From positions 1 through 21,856 of IMG/VR virus record IMGVR_UViG_3300011252_000347: a stretch of 21,856 bases of DNA; one strand, written 5' to 3'. The stretch comes from a virus. Shown piece by piece: positions 1,641-18,202 of this stretch. Position numbers and translations under genes: made by a program. How positions within the stretch are numbered: the first letter of the stretch is position 1; each line of letters begins with the position of its first letter. Below the pieces are notes generated by a model, which saw only the letters and a program-made list of their open reading frames with translations, did no database searches and was not told the DNA's origin.

Positions 1641-2084
1641 ATGAATAATCTTTACCTGCTAAACCCGGCAGATGTTTTGGCTCAATGGCCCATAATAAAA
1701 CCACATATAGATAGCGCCCTTGCCCACTCCGTGGGCGAAATGAACACCTTCCAATTGTTCCAAAAAACGATGTCTGGTGAGGTTCATATCTGGGTCTATC
1801 TGGATGAGAATACGCAGATTACAGCCGTTTTAAGCACACGATTTCTACAATACGAAAACCGCAAATCTTTGCAAATCATGACGTGCGGCGGTGCAGTAGA
1901 AGATTGGGATATCTGGCTAGATCACAATTACGTTTTTGAGAATTTCTGCAAGAACAACGGCTGCTCATCCATACAAATTTGGGGCCGCAAAGGATGGGGC
2001 CGCAAGCTGGCTCAAGTAACCAGCCAGACAGGCAAATCCTACAAGCCCCTATATTATGTCTATGACATGGAGATCGACAAATGA
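1641..2084 (+). CDS. Unknown 147-aa phage protein, possibly GNAT-like fold
   Basis: I do not recognise this protein with certainty. It has mixed alpha/beta composition and no signal peptide or membrane segment. The middle alternates strands (GEVHIWVYLDENTQITAVL, then RKSLQIMTCGG). A helix and SSIQIWGRKGWGRKLAQV follow, which loosely recalls the strand-loop-helix of acetyltransferase-like (GNAT) proteins; that reading is speculative. No clear Shine-Dalgarno precedes ATG 1641. The ATG lies 36 bp after a promoter -10, so it is the first gene of that transcript. Its end overlaps the next start by 4 nt (ATGA), so the two are probably translated together and belong to the virion block. Confidence 0.55.
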   Translation: MNNLYLLNPADVLAQWPIIKPHIDSALAHSVGEMNTFQLFQKTMSGEVHIWVYLDENTQITAVLSTRFLQYENRKSLQIMTCGGAVEDWDIWLDHNYVFENFCKNNGCSSIQIWGRKGWGRKLAQVTSQTGKSYKPLYYVYDMEIDK

Positions 2085-3461: not shown

Positions 3462-4193
3462 ATGCACCCACAGAAAATATCTCCACAAGGCACAAATCTA
3501 GTTAAAAAGTTTGAAGGTCTCCACAGGGTCCAAGACGATGGAATGGTATCAGCGTATCGATGCGTGGCGGGAGTTTGGACATGTGGATTTGGGGCAACTA
3601 AGGGCGTTAGATCAGGCACGAAGTGGACAAAAGAGTACTGTGATCAAAGGTTAGTTGATGACCTGAATGATCACGGGAAGGCAGTTAAACGCCATGTGAA
3701 TGTCCCTCTCACACAGTTTCAATATGACGCTCTCACGTCTTTCGTTTTTAATCTAGGAGAAGGTGCATTTAAGTCCTCTACGTTGCTAAAGAAATTAAAT
3801 AGGGGCATGTACGATGAAGTGCCTGAACAACTCATGCGGTGGAATAAAGCCCGTGTAGAAGGCAAGCTAGTACCGTTGAATGGCCTGACTCGCAGACGTG
3901 CTGCAGAGGCTGCTTTATTTAGTTCTGATGCCGCACTGCCTTCTGATGAAGGTGGCTCAGAGATGCCGCAAAAGGTATCTGCAGCGGCACCTAAATCATT
4001 AGCTAAAAGTAAAACAATGGCTGGTGCCGGTATCGCTGGTGCTGCCACAGCTATGAATGAGATTTCAGGACAACTGCAGGGCTTACTGCCTTACGCTGAT
4101 AGCTTAAAAGTCTTGTTCCTGGTGTGTGCAATCGGCGGCATTGCTCTAGCAGCATACGCAAGATTTAAGGACCATAAAGACGGGGTTCACTGA
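3462..4193 (+). CDS. Endolysin: GH24 lysozyme with hydrophobic holin-like C-terminus
   Basis: A 243-residue lysozyme that would cleave the glycan backbone of peptidoglycan at lysis. Residues 10-150 match the GH24 phage lysozyme fold: KKFEGL with catalytic E18, AYRCVAGVWTCGFGAT, and FQYDALTSFVFNLG around 86-98. The usual E-8-(D/C)-5-T signature is present as E18, C34 and T40, but about seven residues (within HRVQDDGMVS) are inserted between E18 and C34. A low-complexity linker follows. Two hydrophobic stretches come last: TMAGAGIAGAATAM (185-198) and a transmembrane-like segment at 214-233, then a basic end. That tail resembles small phage holin-like membrane modules sometimes fused to endolysins, so the protein may be membrane-tethered. 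There is no N-terminal signal. AGGA lies five bases before the ATG, and the stop overlaps the spanin start (TGATG). Confidence 0.85.
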   Translation: MHPQKISPQGTNLVKKFEGLHRVQDDGMVSAYRCVAGVWTCGFGATKGVRSGTKWTKEYCDQRLVDDLNDHGKAVKRHVNVPLTQFQYDALTSFVFNLGEGAFKSSTLLKKLNRGMYDEVPEQLMRWNKARVEGKLVPLNGLTRRRAAEAALFSSDAALPSDEGGSEMPQKVSAAAPKSLAKSKTMAGAGIAGAATAMNEISGQLQGLLPYADSLKVLFLVCAIGGIALAAYARFKDHKDGVH

Positions 4194-4432
4194 TGTTCGT
4201 ATTTGGTAAAATCAAAACCTACATTATCGCTACTTTAGCCCTCGCCCTGCCTATTATTTACGTCATGGGAAGGATCAAAGGACGGGCTGCAGAAAAGACC
4301 AAAGTGCTAGAAGACGATCTTCAGGCACAGAAAAAATCAACAAACTTTTATAAGAAAATGTCTGAACATGAAGACGATGCTCTTACTGATCGTAAGTCTG
4401 TCACTGACCGGTTGCGCTCAAACGGTTTATAG
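4193..4432 (+). CDS. Inner-membrane spanin (Rz-like)
   Basis: The product has 79 residues, with a short cytoplasmic N-terminus, one transmembrane segment at about 8-25 (TYIIATLALALPIIYVMG), and a charged helical periplasmic part with a likely coiled coil (KTKVLEDDLQAQKKSTNFYKK). This is the layout of an i-spanin, which with a lipoprotein partner fuses the inner and outer membranes in the last step of Gram-negative host lysis. It starts one base inside the lysozyme stop, and its 3' end overlaps the o-spanin gene by 65 nt in another frame. That arrangement is the strongest evidence for the call. It implies a Gram-negative host. Sequence similarity to known Rz was not tested. Confidence 0.75.
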   Translation: MFVFGKIKTYIIATLALALPIIYVMGRIKGRAAEKTKVLEDDLQAQKKSTNFYKKMSEHEDDALTDRKSVTDRLRSNGL

Positions 4433-4613
4433 AACTCAGCTTGAAATATACTGCCCACAATTGAAGCAGTATTCTGAGGCATTCAACAACAATCTAGCCA
4501 ATGAAATCGAAAGCCTACCGCCTGACAACCGGGCGATTGAAGAGGCAATCGGAAACTATGTTTATTTGCGTGACCGTATTCGGCGCTGCCATGAAGAAAA
4601 GGATAAAATCTAA
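4368..4613 (+). CDS. Outer-membrane lipoprotein spanin (Rz1-like)
   Basis: An 81-residue protein with a lipoprotein signal peptide: MK, a hydrophobic core (LLLIVSLSL) and the lipobox LTGC with Cys16. The mature chain would be 66 residues, anchored in the outer membrane and reaching the i-spanin across the periplasm. It is rich in charged helix and has only a small proline pair (LPPDN). The gene begins inside the i-spanin gene in a different frame, a partially overlapping spanin arrangement. No strong ribosome site is visible, so it may depend on translation of the upstream gene. Its stop overlaps the next ATG (TAATG). It has two further cysteines, in YCPQL and RRCHEE. Confidence 0.78.
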   Translation: MKTMLLLIVSLSLTGCAQTVYRTQLEIYCPQLKQYSEAFNNNLANEIESLPPDNRAIEEAIGNYVYLRDRIRRCHEEKDKI

Positions 4614-6382
4614 TGGGTTTGTGGAGTAGCACTTTCGGTGACGGCAATTCATTAGAGCAATCTATTGATAATCAGTTTGGAAGTAGCCAAGGAAGTTATG
4701 TCGGGGGAAGTTGGACAGGTTCTCCTTCTACCCGCCCTGACGGGGTAAAAGGGCCAAATGCCAACCGTGGCGGTGATAATGATTATGACGCTCTGTACGA
4801 TGAGTCTACCGGCGGTGCAGCGGGTGGCCTTGTATCTGCCCCTGCCCCTGTAGCCCCCGCCCCACCACCTAAAAGCACCCCATTCGATCCCAACTCAGTT
4901 CTAGAATATGCAAAGACCGCTGGTATGGTTGAATCTGATGCACAGATTGCGGAACTACTGGCTGATCCCACTAAGTGGCTGAATGACCGTAACATTAATC
5001 TGAGTGACGTTGTTCCCACTATTGATCCTGACGAAGAAGGAACAAACCTTGATCCGTATGATCCACGTTATGATTTAGGTGATGATGTAGCTGTTGATCC
5101 CAATACTGCTGTCATTAGCACCTCTGGAGATGTAACGCAGGGACCAATCACTGATTTCGCTGCAGATACTGTCACAGACCGTATGGGAACTGATGTAACG
5201 ACAGTTGATGCTGCTAAAGGTACAATCAGAGAGGATAACCTTGTAGACGCTGCACAGATCGACATGCAGGGTGTTGGCACCGGGGTTAATGCTGATGGCA
5301 CAATATCGGTTACAGGCGAGGCTATAAATAACTTCGCCACACAGAACATCTCACAGATGATTGATACCTCAACAATCAGCGGGAAGCTTCTGGCTCAAAA
5401 GCTGGGGGAAGGTAACTACACAGATGCCAAGGCTACTGTTCTTGGTCAGATGAAGATCATTAGTGATGAATTTAAAGACAGTAATGGTCAACCTAAAATA
5501 CCTGCATGGGCGCAATCAATAGCCCGTGAAACATCTAAAGCAATGGCTTTTACCGGCATCACCGGGACTGCACAAACCGCTGCTATGGCTACCGCACTGA
5601 TGGAAGCTACACTAGGCGTAGCTGAAAAAGATGCTGCATTCTTTCAAACCCTGACAGTTAAGAATTTAGATAATAGGCAACAGTCTATTATTAACAAAGC
5701 AAATGTCATGGCTCAATTTGAAGTAGCTAATCTAGACAATAGACAGGCTGCATTGGTTCAAAATGCTAAATCATTTTTAGAAATGGATATGGCTAATCTG
5801 ACTAATGAGCAACAGGCTGAAGTGATTAACACACAAGCTATGGTAGAGGCATTACTTACAGATCAAGCAGCCATAAATGCTCAACGTCTGTTTTCAGCAG
5901 AAACTGCAAATGATTTTCAAAAATATTATGATCAGATGAATGCCACGATTTCGATGAATAGGTCTGAGCAAATTAATGCAATGAACCGTTTTAATGCCGG
6001 TGAAATTAATGATGCATCTGAGTTTAATGCAACCATGGAAGACGCTCGACAGCGTTTTTATGCATCCATGCAATACAACATTGATTTGGCTAATGCTAAA
6101 TGGCGTCAGACCGTATCGACAACAAACAGTGATATGCAATTTGAAGCGCACTCTACGGATGTGAAAAACACTTTGGATATCAGCACTGAGGCGATGAACC
6201 GCATGTGGGATCGTGTCGATAATATGTTGGATTATATTTACCGGGGGGCTGAAGCGGAATCCGATAGAGATGCTCAAATTCTTGCAGCACAACTATCTGC
6301 ACAAGCCAGTGGTGGAAGCAGTAGTTCAGGTAAGTATCAGGCAATAGGAACTATTATAGCTGCAGGAATTGGCGCATTTTGA
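4613..6382 (+). CDS. Virion structural protein with 22-residue helical repeats
   Basis: This 589-residue protein is of unrecognised family. Residues 1-90 are low-complexity (Gly/Ser/Asp), with a Pro-Ala linker at 75-87. Residues 90-240 are acidic and Asp/Thr/Val-rich. Residues 255-345 look like a compact helical domain. Three tandem 22-residue repeats begin at NLDNRQ (351), NLDNRQ (373) and NLTNEQ (395), then a long helical region of short ASEFNAT/DLANAK-type units runs to about 560. It ends in a Gly/Ser linker and a short hydrophobic C-terminus (IGTIIAAGIGAF), which might contact membrane or be buried in the particle. AAGGA lies nine bases before the ATG. The neighbours (lysis genes upstream, ejection proteins downstream) suggest an internal or tail-associated virion component; that is inference. 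Confidence 0.6.
   Translation: MGLWSSTFGDGNSLEQSIDNQFGSSQGSYVGGSWTGSPSTRPDGVKGPNANRGGDNDYDALYDESTGGAAGGLVSAPAPVAPAPPPKSTPFDPNSVLEYAKTAGMVESDAQIAELLADPTKWLNDRNINLSDVVPTIDPDEEGTNLDPYDPRYDLGDDVAVDPNTAVISTSGDVTQGPITDFAADTVTDRMGTDVTTVDAAKGTIREDNLVDAAQIDMQGVGTGVNADGTISVTGEAINNFATQNISQMIDTSTISGKLLAQKLGEGNYTDAKATVLGQMKIISDEFKDSNGQPKIPAWAQSIARETSKAMAFTGITGTAQTAAMATALMEATLGVAEKDAAFFQTLTVKNLDNRQQSIINKANVMAQFEVANLDNRQAALVQNAKSFLEMDMANLTNEQQAEVINTQAMVEALLTDQAAINAQRLFSAETANDFQKYYDQMNATISMNRSEQINAMNRFNAGEINDASEFNATMEDARQRFYASMQYNIDLANAKWRQTVSTTNSDMQFEAHSTDVKNTLDISTEAMNRMWDRVDNMLDYIYRGAEAESDRDAQILAAQLSAQASGGSSSSGKYQAIGTIIAAGIGAF
5657..5854 (+). repeat. Three tandem 22-residue repeats (protein level)
   Basis: Residues 349-414 of the structural protein fall into three 22-residue units, each starting V/M-K/A-N-L-D/T-N-R/E-Q. 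Twenty-two is two hendecads, consistent with a long right-handed coiled coil. The DNA copies are diverged but still share aat-ttaga-aata-style segments. Confidence 0.55.
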
Positions 6383-7383
6383 TCAAAACCCTATTAGAAA
6401 AACATGAGAATGTTATACTTTTTTGTAATGGTGGTAGAGACAGCATGGCTGTCTGGCATCTACTAAAACCTTATCTAGATAAAATTTATGTCGGCTGGGT
6501 GGATACCAATAACAACGCCCCTGAAGTCAAAGCCTACATGACTGAAATCTCCAAACAGTCTCCTAAATTTATCAGATATAAATCGGATCAGCCCAAATGG
6601 GTGCAAGAGAACGGAATGCCGTCTGAGGTTGTGCCTATAGATAACACACCGATAGGCCAACGCTATGCAGGACAAAAACAGGTTACCATCGTAGATTACT
6701 TACAGTGCTGTTCTGAAAACATTCATCAACCTCTTTACAAGTTAGCGAAGCATGTGAATGCAACCGCTGTGATCACCGGACAAAGAAGTTCTGATGGACA
6801 TAAAGATGATAAGTCCAGCGGAGATTATGAGAATGGTTTTCAATATTTCTTTCCGATTGAAGATTGGTCTGATGACGATGTTAAATCGTATCTAAAATCA
6901 AAAGGTGAGACTGATCCTAGATTTGATATTCACCACAGTTCTATCGATTGCCTGACCTGCACAGCGTTCTGCAAATCAAGCCCCCAACGCATGGATTACC
7001 TACAGAAAAACCACCCTACTCATTTTGATGAGTTGGTTCGGAGATTAAAGATAATTCGTAACGAGATCACTAATTACACCGATGGAATTGATGCAGTTAT
7101 AAACGGAAACTTTAAAGAAACTGTGGATAACTCTATGAAAACAAAGCTTACAGAAAGTCTTCCCTCAGATATCCGATTGAAAGAAAACATCGAACATTTA
7201 GAAACGGTGGAGGGCATCCGCTATTATACGTGGGATTGGAATGCAGAAGCTATACGCCGGGGTTTAAACAATGGTCCTACGTTTGGCGTAATGGCGCAGG
7301 AAATTCAGAAAACGCATCCAGAGGCAATTGTTGAAGGGCCGCAAGGGTTCCTGATGGTCAACTATGGGGCGCTTCCCGAATGA
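6379..7383 (+). CDS. PP-loop (PAPS reductase family) protein fused to an S74 intramolecular chaperone domain
   Basis: A 334-residue protein in two parts. Residues 10-240 match the PAPS reductase/PP-loop family: strand ENVILFC, then NGGRDS (17-22), a variant of the S-G-G-x-D-S loop that binds and activates with nucleotide. Also present are TGQRSSDG (133-140) and a cysteine cluster CLTCTAFC (191-198), plus CC at 110-111. The canonical C-terminal ECGxH reductase motif is not seen, so the true reaction is unknown. Residues 263-334 match the S74 chaperone of phage tail spikes: SDIRLKENI with the Ser263/Lys268 pair used for self-cleavage, GVMAQEI and MVNYG. The start is TTG 6379, overlapping the upstream stop (TTGA). 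The next Met would remove the PP-loop motif, so TTG, or an unseen start near it, is required. The next gene overlaps by 4 nt. See findings. Confidence 0.75.
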   Translation: MIKTLLEKHENVILFCNGGRDSMAVWHLLKPYLDKIYVGWVDTNNNAPEVKAYMTEISKQSPKFIRYKSDQPKWVQENGMPSEVVPIDNTPIGQRYAGQKQVTIVDYLQCCSENIHQPLYKLAKHVNATAVITGQRSSDGHKDDKSSGDYENGFQYFFPIEDWSDDDVKSYLKSKGETDPRFDIHHSSIDCLTCTAFCKSSPQRMDYLQKNHPTHFDELVRRLKIIRNEITNYTDGIDAVINGNFKETVDNSMKTKLTESLPSDIRLKENIEHLETVEGIRYYTWDWNAEAIRRGLNNGPTFGVMAQEIQKTHPEAIVEGPQGFLMVNYGALPE

Positions 7384-7508
7384 GTGATACAGTAATTCCC
7401 CTGCCCGGCACGAGTGAAGTTGATCGTCAGTTTATTGAACTGGAGCGGCAACGAGAAGAAATTAGACAGCAAGCCCAGAAGATATCGGAGCGGCAAAATG
7501 AAGTTTGA
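7380..7508 (+). CDS. Small 42-aa coiled-coil protein
   Basis: The ATG overlaps the stop of the PP-loop/S74 gene (ATGA). The product begins MSDTVIPLPGTSEVDR and then forms one charged helix (FIELERQREEIRQQAQKISE). It overlaps the next gene by 11 nt. Tight coupling on both sides and the clean helix argue for a real gene. Function is unknown; a minor virion or scaffolding-like peptide is possible. Confidence 0.5.
   Translation: MSDTVIPLPGTSEVDRQFIELERQREEIRQQAQKISERQNEV
7487..7490 (+). promoter_or_regulatory. Shine-Dalgarno fixing the start at 7498
   Basis: GGAG lies seven bases before ATG 7498. It favours that ATG over the upstream in-frame ATG at 7414, which lies inside the 42-aa gene. Confidence 0.5.
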
Positions 7509-7704
7509 GGATGCGGTAAAGAAATCGGTAAAATCTTTCATGGAAGGTAAAATGCCAGAAGCTACCGGAGAATTGATGAGTGATGGAATATTCCACACCC
7601 CGGAATACTTTGATGATCTGGAAGCTGAACTAATGGATGATGAACCTAAAAAGGCTGGCAAGAAAAAAGCTAAAAAGGAGAATGCTGATGGCATCGATGT
7701 TTGA
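7498..7704 (+). CDS. Small unknown protein with lysine-rich C-terminus
   Basis: The product has 68 residues starting MKFEDAVKKSVKSFMEG. It has an acidic middle (EYFDDLEAELMDDE) and a basic patch (KKAGKKKAKK) before the end. GGAG lies seven bases upstream. It overlaps the 42-aa gene by 11 nt and the next gene by 17 nt. The family is not recognised. The charge pattern could suit contact with DNA or an acidic virion protein, and its place just before the ejection-protein genes suggests a minor virion component; both are guesses. Confidence 0.55.
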   Translation: MKFEDAVKKSVKSFMEGKMPEATGELMSDGIFHTPEYFDDLEAELMDDEPKKAGKKKAKKENADGIDV

Positions 7705-8266
7705 CGCACCAATCCCCGGCTCCAATTACGCAGCCGATACAAAAAATTATCCATGGCATCGTCCTCCAGACATCACAGAATATGACGAAGCTGTCGATTA
7801 CATGATCCGCAAGTTGGATGATCCTGATGAACATGAACTAGTATTCAGCTTATTAGAAATAGATACTCAACTAACAACGGTTGTAAGCACCTTGCTGATG
7901 CAAGGCATTTCCCGTGGCAAATTCCCGATTGATTTAGCCATCCTTATGGCAGGGCCATTAGCCCGTTACATCAGTATCTTGGCTGATAGTCAGGACATGA
8001 AATATGAAGTTGGCATAGAAGACACAGACCGTATTTCTATCACCCCAACCAGCTTAAAAATAGCACTGGGCATTATTGATACTGATGACGAGGTTCTGCC
8101 AGAAGAGCCTGTTGAAGAGGTGGAAAGTGGGCCAGATACCGGCGGGTTGATGGGCGCAGTCAGTGAAGACGAAATAGACCCTGCACCAGAGGATGAGCAA
8201 GCTGCCATGCTTGGCATCGTAGAAGAAGAAGTTATGGAAGAGGAGCCTGTCGATGGGTTGGCGTGA
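7688..8266 (+). CDS. Unknown virion-block protein with acidic C-terminus
   Basis: This is a 192-residue protein. I choose ATG 7688 because AAGGAG ends seven bases upstream; the in-frame ATGs at 7637 and 7682 are too early or too close to it. Residues about 35-125 look like a compact helical domain with a hydrophobic core (STLLMQGISRGKFPIDLAIL, then ARYISILAD). The last 60 residues are very acidic (EEPVEEVESG, EDEIDPAPEDEQ, EEEVMEEEPVDG). By position, before two very large internal proteins, it could be the smallest member of a three-protein ejection set like T7 gp14-gp16. No transmembrane segment or motif confirms that. Its end overlaps the next gene by 14 nt. Confidence 0.55.
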   Translation: MASMFDAPIPGSNYAADTKNYPWHRPPDITEYDEAVDYMIRKLDDPDEHELVFSLLEIDTQLTTVVSTLLMQGISRGKFPIDLAILMAGPLARYISILADSQDMKYEVGIEDTDRISITPTSLKIALGIIDTDDEVLPEEPVEEVESGPDTGGLMGAVSEDEIDPAPEDEQAAMLGIVEEEVMEEEPVDGLA

Positions 8267-15620: not shown

Positions 15621-15654
15621 ACAGCCCGTGGGTCAAGAACTCATGGGCTGTTTT
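15621..15654 (+). terminator. Terminator of the plus-strand late block
   Basis: ACAGCCCGTG (15621-15630) pairs with CATGGGCTGT (15642-15651), with one G-U pair and an 11-base loop, followed by TTTT and then GATT. On the minus strand the stem is followed by adenines, so it works rightward. It sits about 90 bp past the last late gene, and its stem and loop overlap the 3' end of the convergent nuclease gene. Confidence 0.6.
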
Positions 15655-16115
15655 GATTCAAAAACAGGAACAATCTGTAACTCTGATTTAGGTATATCAA
15701 AGAACCTTTCCCCTCTTTTTATATAGATATTTGGGACATCTATAATAGGTGCATTTACGACTGCGTTATACCCAGCTATTGCTGCATGAGTTAAACTGTT
15801 GTTGAACACCATGAATTTTATTGATCGTGTGAGGAACTTTGATTTTCTAACTGGTATGTGCAGGGTATCGAAATGAAATGAAGTTCCGTGCCAAACGGAT
15901 TTGACTTCCACCTCACAAGGGAACGTCTTACCTTTTCCTCTAACAAGCAAATCCGTACCAAATTCATTAGGGTTGTCACTAGCTTCATAGCCCATCCTTT
16001 TCCAAAACTGTTTTGCCACTTCTCTGGCTGGATTGTCATACTGATCGAAGATTTCGTGCTGGAATACTTTGTACATGCTCGTCTTTGTTTTTGAAGAATG
16101 CGAAGTTATATCCAC
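15633..16115 (-). CDS. PD-(D/E)XK nuclease
   Basis: This 160-residue protein has a restriction-endonuclease-like core: helix REVAKQFWKRMGYEAS, GTDLLVRGKGKTFPCEVEVK with Asp55, Glu70 and Lys72 as the metal-binding D...ExK, and later strands (SIKFMVFN and so on). Such small nucleases in phage early blocks serve as Holliday-junction resolvases, repair nucleases or host-DNA-degrading enzymes; which applies is not known. The start shown is GTG 16115, with AGGGA eight bases upstream. ATG 16076 is an alternative that shortens the N-terminus by 13 residues and loses no motif. It overlaps the upstream small gene by 80 nt (41 with ATG). It is the last gene of the minus-strand block, and its stop lies in the loop of the opposing terminator. 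Confidence 0.7.
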   Translation of the reverse strand: MDITSHSSKTKTSMYKVFQHEIFDQYDNPAREVAKQFWKRMGYEASDNPNEFGTDLLVRGKGKTFPCEVEVKSVWHGTSFHFDTLHIPVRKSKFLTRSIKFMVFNNSLTHAAIAGYNAVVNAPIIDVPNIYIKRGERFFDIPKSELQIVPVFESKQPMSS

Positions 16116-16456: not shown

Positions 16457-18202
16457 TTATTCACACTTCCGAAGGCCGGTTGCTGGATCGAAATAGCAAG
16501 CCCCACCCTCTTCAACGAAGTCATGATTTTCTTCCACAACGGGAACTTCTGCCACATCCTCAACAGCAGATGCGTTTAAAATTCCAAAGCGTTTTCCACT
16601 GGCACGAAATGTAGTACAGCCAGAACTACCGCCCTCATAGGCATCCATGTATACCTTTTTGAAGTCTTCCCATCCAACATTGTCACCAACATTGCAGGTC
16701 TTGCTGCAAGCTGAATCAACGTATTTACTGGCAACATTTAGAACCTTCACATGGTCAAACACACTCAGTTCATCAGCAGTTTTGCCCTTTACTCCAAATT
16801 CCCGGTAAGCATAGTCTTCGACGGTTTCAATTCGTGGCCCATCAAAGGTCTGGATTGTCCGGTCATATGTGTGTGAGAACACTGGTTCGATACCAGAGGA
16901 GACATTGTCTGCAGATAGACTAATGGTTCCTGTCGGGGCGATGGAGAGAAGATGCGAGTTACGAATGCCGTGAGTTTGGATAAGCAACCTAATGCTTGCG
17001 GGGAGTGTTTGGGCAAATTCTGAATCCAGAAACTTTTCATCATATAAAGGGAACTTACCTTTCTCTACTGCAAGTGAGATTGATGTCAGATAGCAACCAT
17101 CCCTGATCACAGTCATGATCTTTTCAAACCAATGAATGAAGTCAGGTGTGCCATAGTCATAGCCCATTGCTTCCAGAGCGTTAGCTAGACCGGTCACACC
17201 CAATCCCATACGCCGGGTATCTTTTGCTTGCTTTTCCTGTTGAGGTAATGGGTATGTCGCACGATCCACTACGTTATCCATGGCTCTCACAACGTGGGGG
17301 ATGTCGTTCTTTAACATCTGCATGTTAAACGAATATGCCCCTTCTGGGGTCATCTGGATGTATTTAGTAAGGTTGAATGATCCCAACAGACACGCACCAT
17401 AGGGCGGCAAAGGCTGCTCACCACAGGGATTGGTGGCAACGATCTTCTCGCAATAATGCAGATTGTTTTTGCGGTTAATCCTATCGATGAATAAGATACC
17501 AGGCTCTGCCCAATCCCATGTTGATCTGAGTATATCATCCCATAATGCACGGGCTTTTACGGTCTTATAGACAGTGCCTTCAAACACCAGATCAAAGTCA
17601 GTGTCTTCTTTTACTGCCGACATAAACTCATCAGTCACGCCAACTGAAATATTAAACTGAGTTAATTCCGTGCTGTTGTTTTTAGCCCGGATGAACTTTT
17701 CGATATCGGGGTGATCCACCCTCAAAACGCCCATCTGAGCGCCCCTCCGGTGTCCTGCAGAGGCAATGGTTTTGCAGGTAGCATCAAAGATGCCCATGAA
17801 GGACAGGGGTCCACTAGACTTACTATCTAGGCTCCTAATCAATGCCCCATGAGGTCTGAGTGTACTGAAATCATATCCAATACCCCCACCTAGTTGCATA
17901 GTTCGGGCAGCTTCACCAACGGCCCCTGTGATGCCTTCCATACTGTCTTCAATAGTACCGCTAACGAAACAATTATATGGCGTTACAGTACGAGGTGCGC
18001 CCATGGCAGATTGCACTCTGCCAGCGGGTAAAAACCGTTGGTTATATAGAATGGTTCTAAAGTTGTTGAAGTGACTTTCATCGTCCTTCAATGCTTCGGC
18101 AACCCTTGTCATAGCTTCAGTGAAAGTCTCGCCCTCAGAGCGGTATTTCATTGCATGGATTTCTTCAGATATTGGTAGTGTAGGCCCGTATTCGTTTTTC
18201 AT
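16457..18202 (-). CDS. nrdJ: Class II (adenosylcobalamin-dependent) ribonucleoside reductase
   Basis: The product has 581 residues and reduces ribonucleotides to deoxyribonucleotides for phage DNA synthesis, using adenosylcobalamin as radical source. Visible active-site features are Cys78 (PYNCFVSG) and Cys271 (GACLLGSFNL), the likely redox pair, and Asn258-Cys260-Glu262 in NPCGEQPLPPYG, the thiyl-radical site. APTGTISLSADNVSSGIEP (422-440) is the class II phosphate-binding and core motif. The C-terminus carries Cys569 and Cys580, likely for electron transfer from thioredoxin. No N-terminal ATP cone is present and no small (R2) subunit gene lies nearby, which supports class II over class I. 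The length is shorter than the usual bacterial NrdJ. GGGAG precedes the ATG. It sits 10 bp after the MazG-like gene in the same operon. Confidence 0.88.
   Translation of the reverse strand: MKNEYGPTLPISEEIHAMKYRSEGETFTEAMTRVAEALKDDESHFNNFRTILYNQRFLPAGRVQSAMGAPRTVTPYNCFVSGTIEDSMEGITGAVGEAARTMQLGGGIGYDFSTLRPHGALIRSLDSKSSGPLSFMGIFDATCKTIASAGHRRGAQMGVLRVDHPDIEKFIRAKNNSTELTQFNISVGVTDEFMSAVKEDTDFDLVFEGTVYKTVKARALWDDILRSTWDWAEPGILFIDRINRKNNLHYCEKIVATNPCGEQPLPPYGACLLGSFNLTKYIQMTPEGAYSFNMQMLKNDIPHVVRAMDNVVDRATYPLPQQEKQAKDTRRMGLGVTGLANALEAMGYDYGTPDFIHWFEKIMTVIRDGCYLTSISLAVEKGKFPLYDEKFLDSEFAQTLPASIRLLIQTHGIRNSHLLSIAPTGTISLSADNVSSGIEPVFSHTYDRTIQTFDGPRIETVEDYAYREFGVKGKTADELSVFDHVKVLNVASKYVDSACSKTCNVGDNVGWEDFKKVYMDAYEGGSSGCTTFRASGKRFGILNASAVEDVAEVPVVEENHDFVEEGGACYFDPATGLRKCE

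Follow-up and report, generated by a model that had tools for sequence, protein, structure and literature searches.

Probable insertion of a PP-loop gene between an ejection-type virion protein and its S74 domain in a marine phage

In the 21,856-nucleotide viral DNA of IMG/VR record IMGVR_UViG_3300011252_000347 (positions 1 to 21,856; the window below), a single open frame at 6379-7383 on the plus strand joins a PP-loop domain to a C-terminal Peptidase_S74 domain in one protein of 334 residues that begins with a TTG codon. Comparison with related loci traces this arrangement to a neighboring gene: a PP-loop gene was very probably inserted between an ejection-type virion protein (the body) and its S74, leaving the S74 on the frame of the enzyme. 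We place the probability of the full reading, in which the insertion is combined with translational coupling of the two genes and self-removal of the S74, at roughly 65%, leaving aside any role for the enzyme.

With respect to the fusion itself, the two domains are matched separately by Pfam, as the initial annotation of the window, which placed both in one frame, had proposed. Specifically, PF01507 (PAPS_reduct) spans residues 12-196 (E = 1e-12, 48.9 bits versus a cut-off of 22.5) and PF13884 (Peptidase_S74) spans residues 263-316 (E = 1.2e-10, 41.9 bits versus a cut-off of 22). PHROGs agrees with these domains, the best S74-bearing families being phrog_6121 ("virion structural protein") and phrog_4287 ("DNA ejection protein"). 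A neighborhood survey of the kind suggested in that annotation recovered the same fusion in contigs of three other metagenome samples, L006, L007 and L008, which are 89-92% identical to it (L007 and L008 are 99.9% identical to each other). The fusion is therefore genuine, and an assembly or frameshift artifact is ruled out. The PP-loop domain (residues 1-244; 6379-7110, plus strand) is delimited by Pfam, a 39-sequence alignment, a profile comparison with the Mycobacterium tuberculosis adenosine 5′-phosphosulfate (APS) reductase 7lhr and a structure model with a predicted local distance difference test (pLDDT) score of ~95. It is followed by a linker that holds a conserved Met253 and ends in Pro262 (residues 245-262; 7111-7164, plus strand) and by the S74 domain (residues 263-334; 7165-7383, plus strand, the last 3 bases being the stop codon), which is identified by Pfam and by 93% identity to the S74 that is fused to the body in locus L012.

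The source of this S74 is indicated by the synteny of the window with the HMO-2011-type roseophages CRP-738 and CRP-235. By BLAST, CRP-235 gp25 aligns with both parts: its residues 227-771 with the ORF (open reading frame) upstream of the fusion (4613-6382, plus strand) at 52% identity, and its residues 774-843 with positions 263-332 of the PP-loop ORF product at 64% identity. The upstream ORF encodes the body, a 589-residue homolog of CRP-738 gp24 and CRP-235 gp25 without an S74, whose C-terminus consists of a Ser-rich linker and then the hydrophobic tail YQAIGTIIAAGIGAF. It is 49-52% identical to the CRP proteins (BLAST) and 93% identical to the body of L012. The window body by itself had no match in PHROGs, and its ejection family is assigned through L012, where body plus S74 matches phrog_4287 at 43-386 of 392. 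CRP-738 gp24, CRP-235 gp25 and phrog_4287 resemble the window in body, S74 (64-69% identity) and neighbors; whereas body and S74 form one protein in the two CRP phages, as they also do, with no PP-loop, in the IMG/VR loci L012-L023, the window has a PP-loop gene between them. The initial annotation had regarded separate genes for the two parts in related phages as evidence against the fusion. They are indeed separate, in an unexpected form: the S74 lies on the preceding gene, and the PP-loop gene is missing or stands alone.

The junctions define the event almost to the base. In a blastn comparison, the window and L012 share 89.4% nucleotide identity up to 6370 and 89.7% from 7165 on, and between these points a cassette of 794 bp (6371-7164, plus strand) stands in place of 9 bp of the L012 empty site. 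In a codon view, L012 reads GGA ATT ACT AAG TTT and then continues with TCC GAC ATA, whereas the window reads GGA ATT GGC GCA TTT and then TGA; L103 carries the same empty site as L012. The stop codon of the body sits exactly at the former position of the S74 serine. It forms part of a TTGA overlap (6379-6382, plus strand; kept in L006 and L007) in which TGA closes the body gene and TTG opens the PP-loop frame; with this stop-start junction of its own, the insert terminates the body one residue short of the S74 serine.

Among HMO-type bodies, four locus states were found: body and S74 in one protein (89 loci, with 50 distinct C-termini), body followed by the PP-loop–S74 fusion (three distinct genomes, namely the window, L006 and L007), body followed by a PP-loop gene with the S74 lost (L028 and L029), and body with neither (eight loci: L115, L116, L136, L141, L153, L160, L165 and L186). 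As the first state is the commonest, and also that of CRP-738 and CRP-235, these counts make insertion the simplest direction. Several of the eight bodies lacking both end right at the S74 junction, with one lying near its contig end, and such bodies show that the S74 is dispensable in nature. In terms of mobility, comparing the window with L007 gives 0.25 synonymous differences per site in the PP-loop gene and 0.70-0.83 in the lysozyme gene, body, S74 and downstream gene. Such similarity relative to the flanks indicates that the cassette has moved on its own between two phage backbones, and into the identical point. Between the window and L006, the values for the PP-loop gene and body are similar (0.36 and 0.39).

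The displaced S74 comprises 72 residues and ends in VNYGALPE. All 14 aligned S74 members match the Pfam domain, and the Ser-Lys dyad at +5 spacing (S263 and K268, both within SDIRLK, as the initial annotation had noted) is invariant among them. S74 domains, also known as intramolecular chaperone auto-processing (ICA) domains, cut immediately before the dyad serine, with the lysine at +5: MyRF between P586 and S587 (K592) and endosialidase before S911 (K916) (PMC8326128). The displaced domain retains P262, S263 and K268, the proline before the serine being shared with MyRF, and its SDxRxK dyad is that of endosialidase, the GA-1 neck appendage (3gud) and MyRF (7dc3), with which it matches in sequence over the first 52-57 residues. 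Unlike these, it is only 72 residues long, has neither a C-terminal coiled coil nor an upstream β-helix, and lies behind an enzyme. From the dyad, we infer autocleavage between P262 and S263, and by analogy with the known domains we give an even chance that the S74 removes itself from the PP-loop protein. Selection on the domain was gauged from the ratio of nonsynonymous to synonymous rates (dN/dS), which is 0.088 between the window and L006, 0.066 between L007 and L015, and 0.064 between the cassette-free L014 and L015, with the caveat that part of the divergence in these comparisons may predate the insertion.

Two S74 classes are seen in loci L194-L273 (e.g., L201, L206, L234 and L243), a fiber-type with a coiled-coil helix and a coil-less class that caps ejection-type proteins right behind a Gly/Ala-rich hydrophobic tail. 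By eye, ejection-type S74s finish within ~13 residues of the domain, whereas tail-fiber S74s run into a helix such as VPLLIEAIKELSAKI (a tally of tail lengths at a 25-residue cut mixes the two classes, and its totals were not used). No C-terminal coiled-coil helix was found in the window S74. The initial annotation had taken the domain for that of a tail spike, and this assignment, like that to a fiber, is ruled out by the ancestry of the S74, carried by relatives on the upstream ejection-type protein, and by the missing coiled coil. In the structure model, the S74 is preceded by the PP-loop enzyme and helices at 245-259 rather than by a trimeric β-helical fiber; the S74 part of this monomer model has a pLDDT <50 at 260-301.

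Taken together, these observations suggest the following course of events. A PP-loop gene that is normally a separate, closely spaced partner behind ejection-type genes very probably entered an HMO-2011-type marine phage and landed between the body and its C-terminal S74. The body thereby ends at the length expected after autocleavage; its end position is observed, and cleavage of the ancestral protein is predicted on the basis of its Ser-Lys dyad. Translational coupling at TTGA probably yields the PP-loop protein with the remaining S74 attached, and this S74 most likely cuts at P262/S263, freeing a PP-loop enzyme of the usual size.

Several observations weigh against this scheme. The S74 is of the coil-less kind, and MyRF trimerizes chiefly through its C-terminal coiled coil and must be trimeric to be cleaved (PMC8326128). 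The purifying selection on the S74 of carriers (dN/dS 0.07-0.09) exceeds what would be expected for a useless remnant. Moreover, the window is as close to the cassette-free L012 and L103 as to the cassette-bearing L006, so that there was more than one gain or loss and these cannot be counted. Some PP-loop loci lack a tight overlap with the upstream gene, having gaps of up to ~23 bp instead, and what is proposed below for the role of the enzyme draws solely on position and motifs.

As to why the S74 stays conserved, the main rival is that the displaced domain still acts in trans on the ejection-type protein, either once released from the PP-loop protein or as a short product of an internal start at Met253. 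This would account for purifying selection after displacement, Met253 is conserved in all three genomes, and the body and PP-loop genes are translationally adjacent; nonetheless, we consider it unlikely, as relatives without an S74 exist (L136, L141, L153 and L165, as well as L028 and L029), no convincing Shine-Dalgarno sequence was seen by eye ahead of Met253, and known S74 domains work in cis (PMC3742443). Somewhat less likely again is co-option of the S74 to fold or trimerize the PP-loop protein, giving a trimeric and possibly virion-carried enzyme. The low dN/dS of the S74 in both backbones that carry it behind the PP-loop domain, the retained dyad and the location among virion genes would all fit such a role. 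However, the domain stops just after VNY without a MyRF-type coiled coil, which makes the S74-driven trimerization envisaged in the initial annotation doubtful; PP-loop homologs have no S74 and do not need one, the domain is gone in L028 and L029, it came from the neighboring gene, and a PP-loop homolog is unlisted among the virion proteins of phage JC1 (see below). Readthrough or programmed −1 frameshifting at GCATTTTGA, by which some body–PP-loop–S74 product would arise and the ejection-type protein would still end in the S74, would be in keeping with the PP-loop frame being −1 to the body, with conservation of GCATTTTGA in the three genomes and with the loss of the usual ATG. We regard it as improbable and set it aside, since no X XXY YYZ slippery heptamer was seen by eye, homologs show ordinary NTGA overlaps with ATG or GTG starts (e.g., L087 and L099), and the TTG aligns with the start of free homologs. 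At this start site (6379-6384 in the window, 4001-4006 in L006 and L007), the S74-fused clade has ATC or ATA in place of the ATG of free PP-loop homologs, and the TTG that alone remains is a weak start.

Returning to the insertion reading, the wider distribution of the PP-loop gene is consistent with a partner of ejection-type genes. The best 80 of 268 PP-loop relatives were used. In 59 of the 61 non-redundant PP-loop loci having upstream sequence, the gene lies immediately behind an ORF whose product has a Gly/Ala/hydrophobic tail at its C-terminus (e.g., GLMSGLGTIAGAGIMAF), a feature of only 21% of ORFs of at least 150 residues in the same loci; the test was a simple composition threshold picked after the tails had been seen, against which this background guards. 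The exceptions are L064 and L069, the latter with such a protein farther upstream. A profile search of bacterial-genome contigs gave seven further PP-loop loci, all with a Gly-rich-tailed upstream protein by eye. This pairing of the phage "PAPS reductase" family with a Gly-rich-tailed virion protein spans L002, L005, L009-L011, L028-L101 and L274-L280, and the two genes are usually joined by tight overlaps (TAATG, TGATG, ATGA, GTGA or TTGA) or by gaps within the range given above. The upstream proteins of L005 and L011 match the body portions of phrog_4287 (1-315) and phrog_6121 (5-198), respectively, both of which are profiles ending in an S74, and that of BcepIL02 belongs to phrog_8003. Among named phages, gp67 of BcepIL02 and gp65 of JC1, both Burkholderia phages (phrog_424, "PAPS reductase"), are members of the same PP-loop family at 34% identity. 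Like the window enzyme, they follow a Gly-rich-tailed virion protein, have the CC and CxxC motifs and lack ECGxH; unlike it, they have no S74 and are separate genes with their own ATG or GTG start.

Conversely, no PP-loop ORF was present at 80 further S74 loci, in several of which an ejection-type tail runs straight into the S74 (in L234, GSAGIMAF is followed directly by SDVRLKEN). The S74 and the PP-loop gene therefore appear to be alternative occupants of one position, with the window clade holding both. Published work names the PP-loop gene a moron or a likely sulfur-metabolism gene, including work on CRP-822-type phages, and the JC1 paper reads it as a sulfur-metabolism/PAPS reductase gene (PMC9144972). 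A literature search, outside which most subscription journals lay, returned no account of this enzyme being tied to ejection-type genes, nor of an S74 with ejection proteins.

In terms of chemistry, the PP-loop domain carries an NGGRDS motif where SGGKDS is near-invariant in 39 sequences, together with an iron-sulfur signature of the form CC-X79-CxxC (C110-C111 and D190-C191-x2-C194), the four cysteines of which are invariant in the same set. The CC...CxxC arrangement is the [4Fe-4S] pattern of bacterial APS reductases, and both motifs align with those of 7lhr in the profile comparison. The catalytic cysteine motif ECGxH is missing from the window protein and from the aligned homologs. The initial annotation had likewise seen no ECGxH and had remarked on a cysteine cluster, which is found as DCLTCTAFC, its DCxxC half pairing with C110-C111. 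Confidence in the model is high over residues 1-245. In a fold search limited to residues 1-216, its closest structures are APS and 3′-phosphoadenosine 5′-phosphosulfate (PAPS) reductases (4bwv, 2o8v, 2goy and 7lhr) and ATP sulfurylase 1zun, tied at Z ~14-15, with GMP synthetase near. With the CysH proteins of M. tuberculosis (7lhr) and Pseudomonas aeruginosa (2goy), the enzyme thus shares fold (Z ~14) and iron-sulfur cysteine positions, but these have the ECGxH tail that it lacks, and its P-loop is that of canonical ATP pyrophosphatases and differs from the SFGIQA-type CysH loop in the same alignments.

The database name of the protein (phrog_424), its APS-reductase-like CC and CxxC and the JC1 and CRP-822-type papers would imply a PAPS/APS reductase that assists host sulfur assimilation and whose position is accidental. 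We think this unlikely, to about the same degree as S74 co-option. The missing ECGxH means that the protein is probably not a sulfate reductase, a doubt already voiced in the initial annotation and reinforced by the canonical SGGKDS-type loop in place of the degenerate CysH one; the NCBIfam models all score far below cut-off (cysH, 31.4 bits versus 165; APS_reductase, 23.1 versus 235; PAPS_reductase, 19.3 versus 254), and the place behind ejection-type genes is near-fixed. We favor an ATP-dependent iron-sulfur PP-loop enzyme instead, whose predicted chemistry would be ATP cleavage to AMP and pyrophosphate (PPi) and sulfur transfer of the SspD/DndC, NcsA and CysD kind. SspD/DndC, BrxP and NcsA (6scy) are canonical PP-loop, iron-sulfur enzymes that handle sulfur, as this enzyme would be, and PP-loop homologs match SspD and BrxP in PADLOC, a Burkholderia homolog reaching 1.1e-12 with SspD, whereas the window protein matches only weakly (0.0084 with SspD). 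No ssp partner, defense or DNA-modification genes were named in the window, where not all ORFs were searched. Our tentative suggestion, by analogy, is a cytoplasmic, late-expressed [4Fe-4S] PP-loop enzyme serving the ejection-protein module.

With respect to virion presence, CsCl (cesium chloride)-purified JC1 virions contained gp64 (the upstream protein), gp67 and gp68, and gp65, the PP-loop homolog, is not in the mass-spectrometry table (PMC9144972). Its absence argues weakly against virion delivery of the PP-loop enzyme, which the initial annotation had considered. We infer that the body is a virion component by analogy with gp64, found in virions at the equivalent place; its own structure model is mostly helical and unusable (mean pLDDT 47.8).

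An odd fusion is thus recast as a nearly base-exact gene insertion at a predicted self-cleavage point, a possible route by which a phage gains a gene within a virion-protein gene while the mature protein stays unchanged. More broadly, the phage "PAPS reductase", a widespread gene commonly assigned to sulfur metabolism, is a near-constant neighbor of ejection-type genes and lacks the reductase catalytic tail. What it does during infection therefore needs to be reconsidered and is open to tests in cultured phages. A bolder generalization, which we hold to be rather unlikely, is that podovirus ejection-type genes end in a functional slot for either a coil-less self-cleaving S74 or a dedicated [4Fe-4S] PP-loop enzyme modifying or maturing the ejection protein (e.g., by thiolation), in which case the window would have both, the enzyme being inserted at the cleavage point with mature products unchanged.

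Downstream of the fusion, a small homolog of CRP-738 gp23 (7498-7704, plus strand) follows the S74, PP-loop gene or body in all locus states, and the next syntenic gene (7697-8266, plus strand) is a homolog of CRP-738 gp22 at 54% identity. Upstream of the ejection-type gene lies a small acyl/acetyltransferase-like gene at 1641-2084 (plus strand), with counterparts in L001 (1746-2198), L002 (5562-5999), L009 (1962-2408) and L004 (3343-3699). Such genes are annotated as acyltransferase, acetyltransferase or, for CRP-235 gp30, toxin-activating lysine-acyltransferase, and none is named confidently by Pfam; the product could acylate a virion protein. The overlapping ORFs at 4193-4432 and 4368-4613 (plus strand) resemble an Rz/Rz1 spanin pair, with an Rz-like match to phrog_1026 (3.8e-06) and a lipoprotein-like signal in the second ORF. 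On the minus strand, a 160-residue ORF at 15633-16115 has no significant family match, and its segment FGTDLLVRGKGKTFPCEVEVKSVW resembles by eye a PD-(D/E)XK nuclease core, while 16457-18202 encodes NrdJ, an adenosylcobalamin-dependent class II ribonucleotide reductase (TIGR02504, 7.8e-155).

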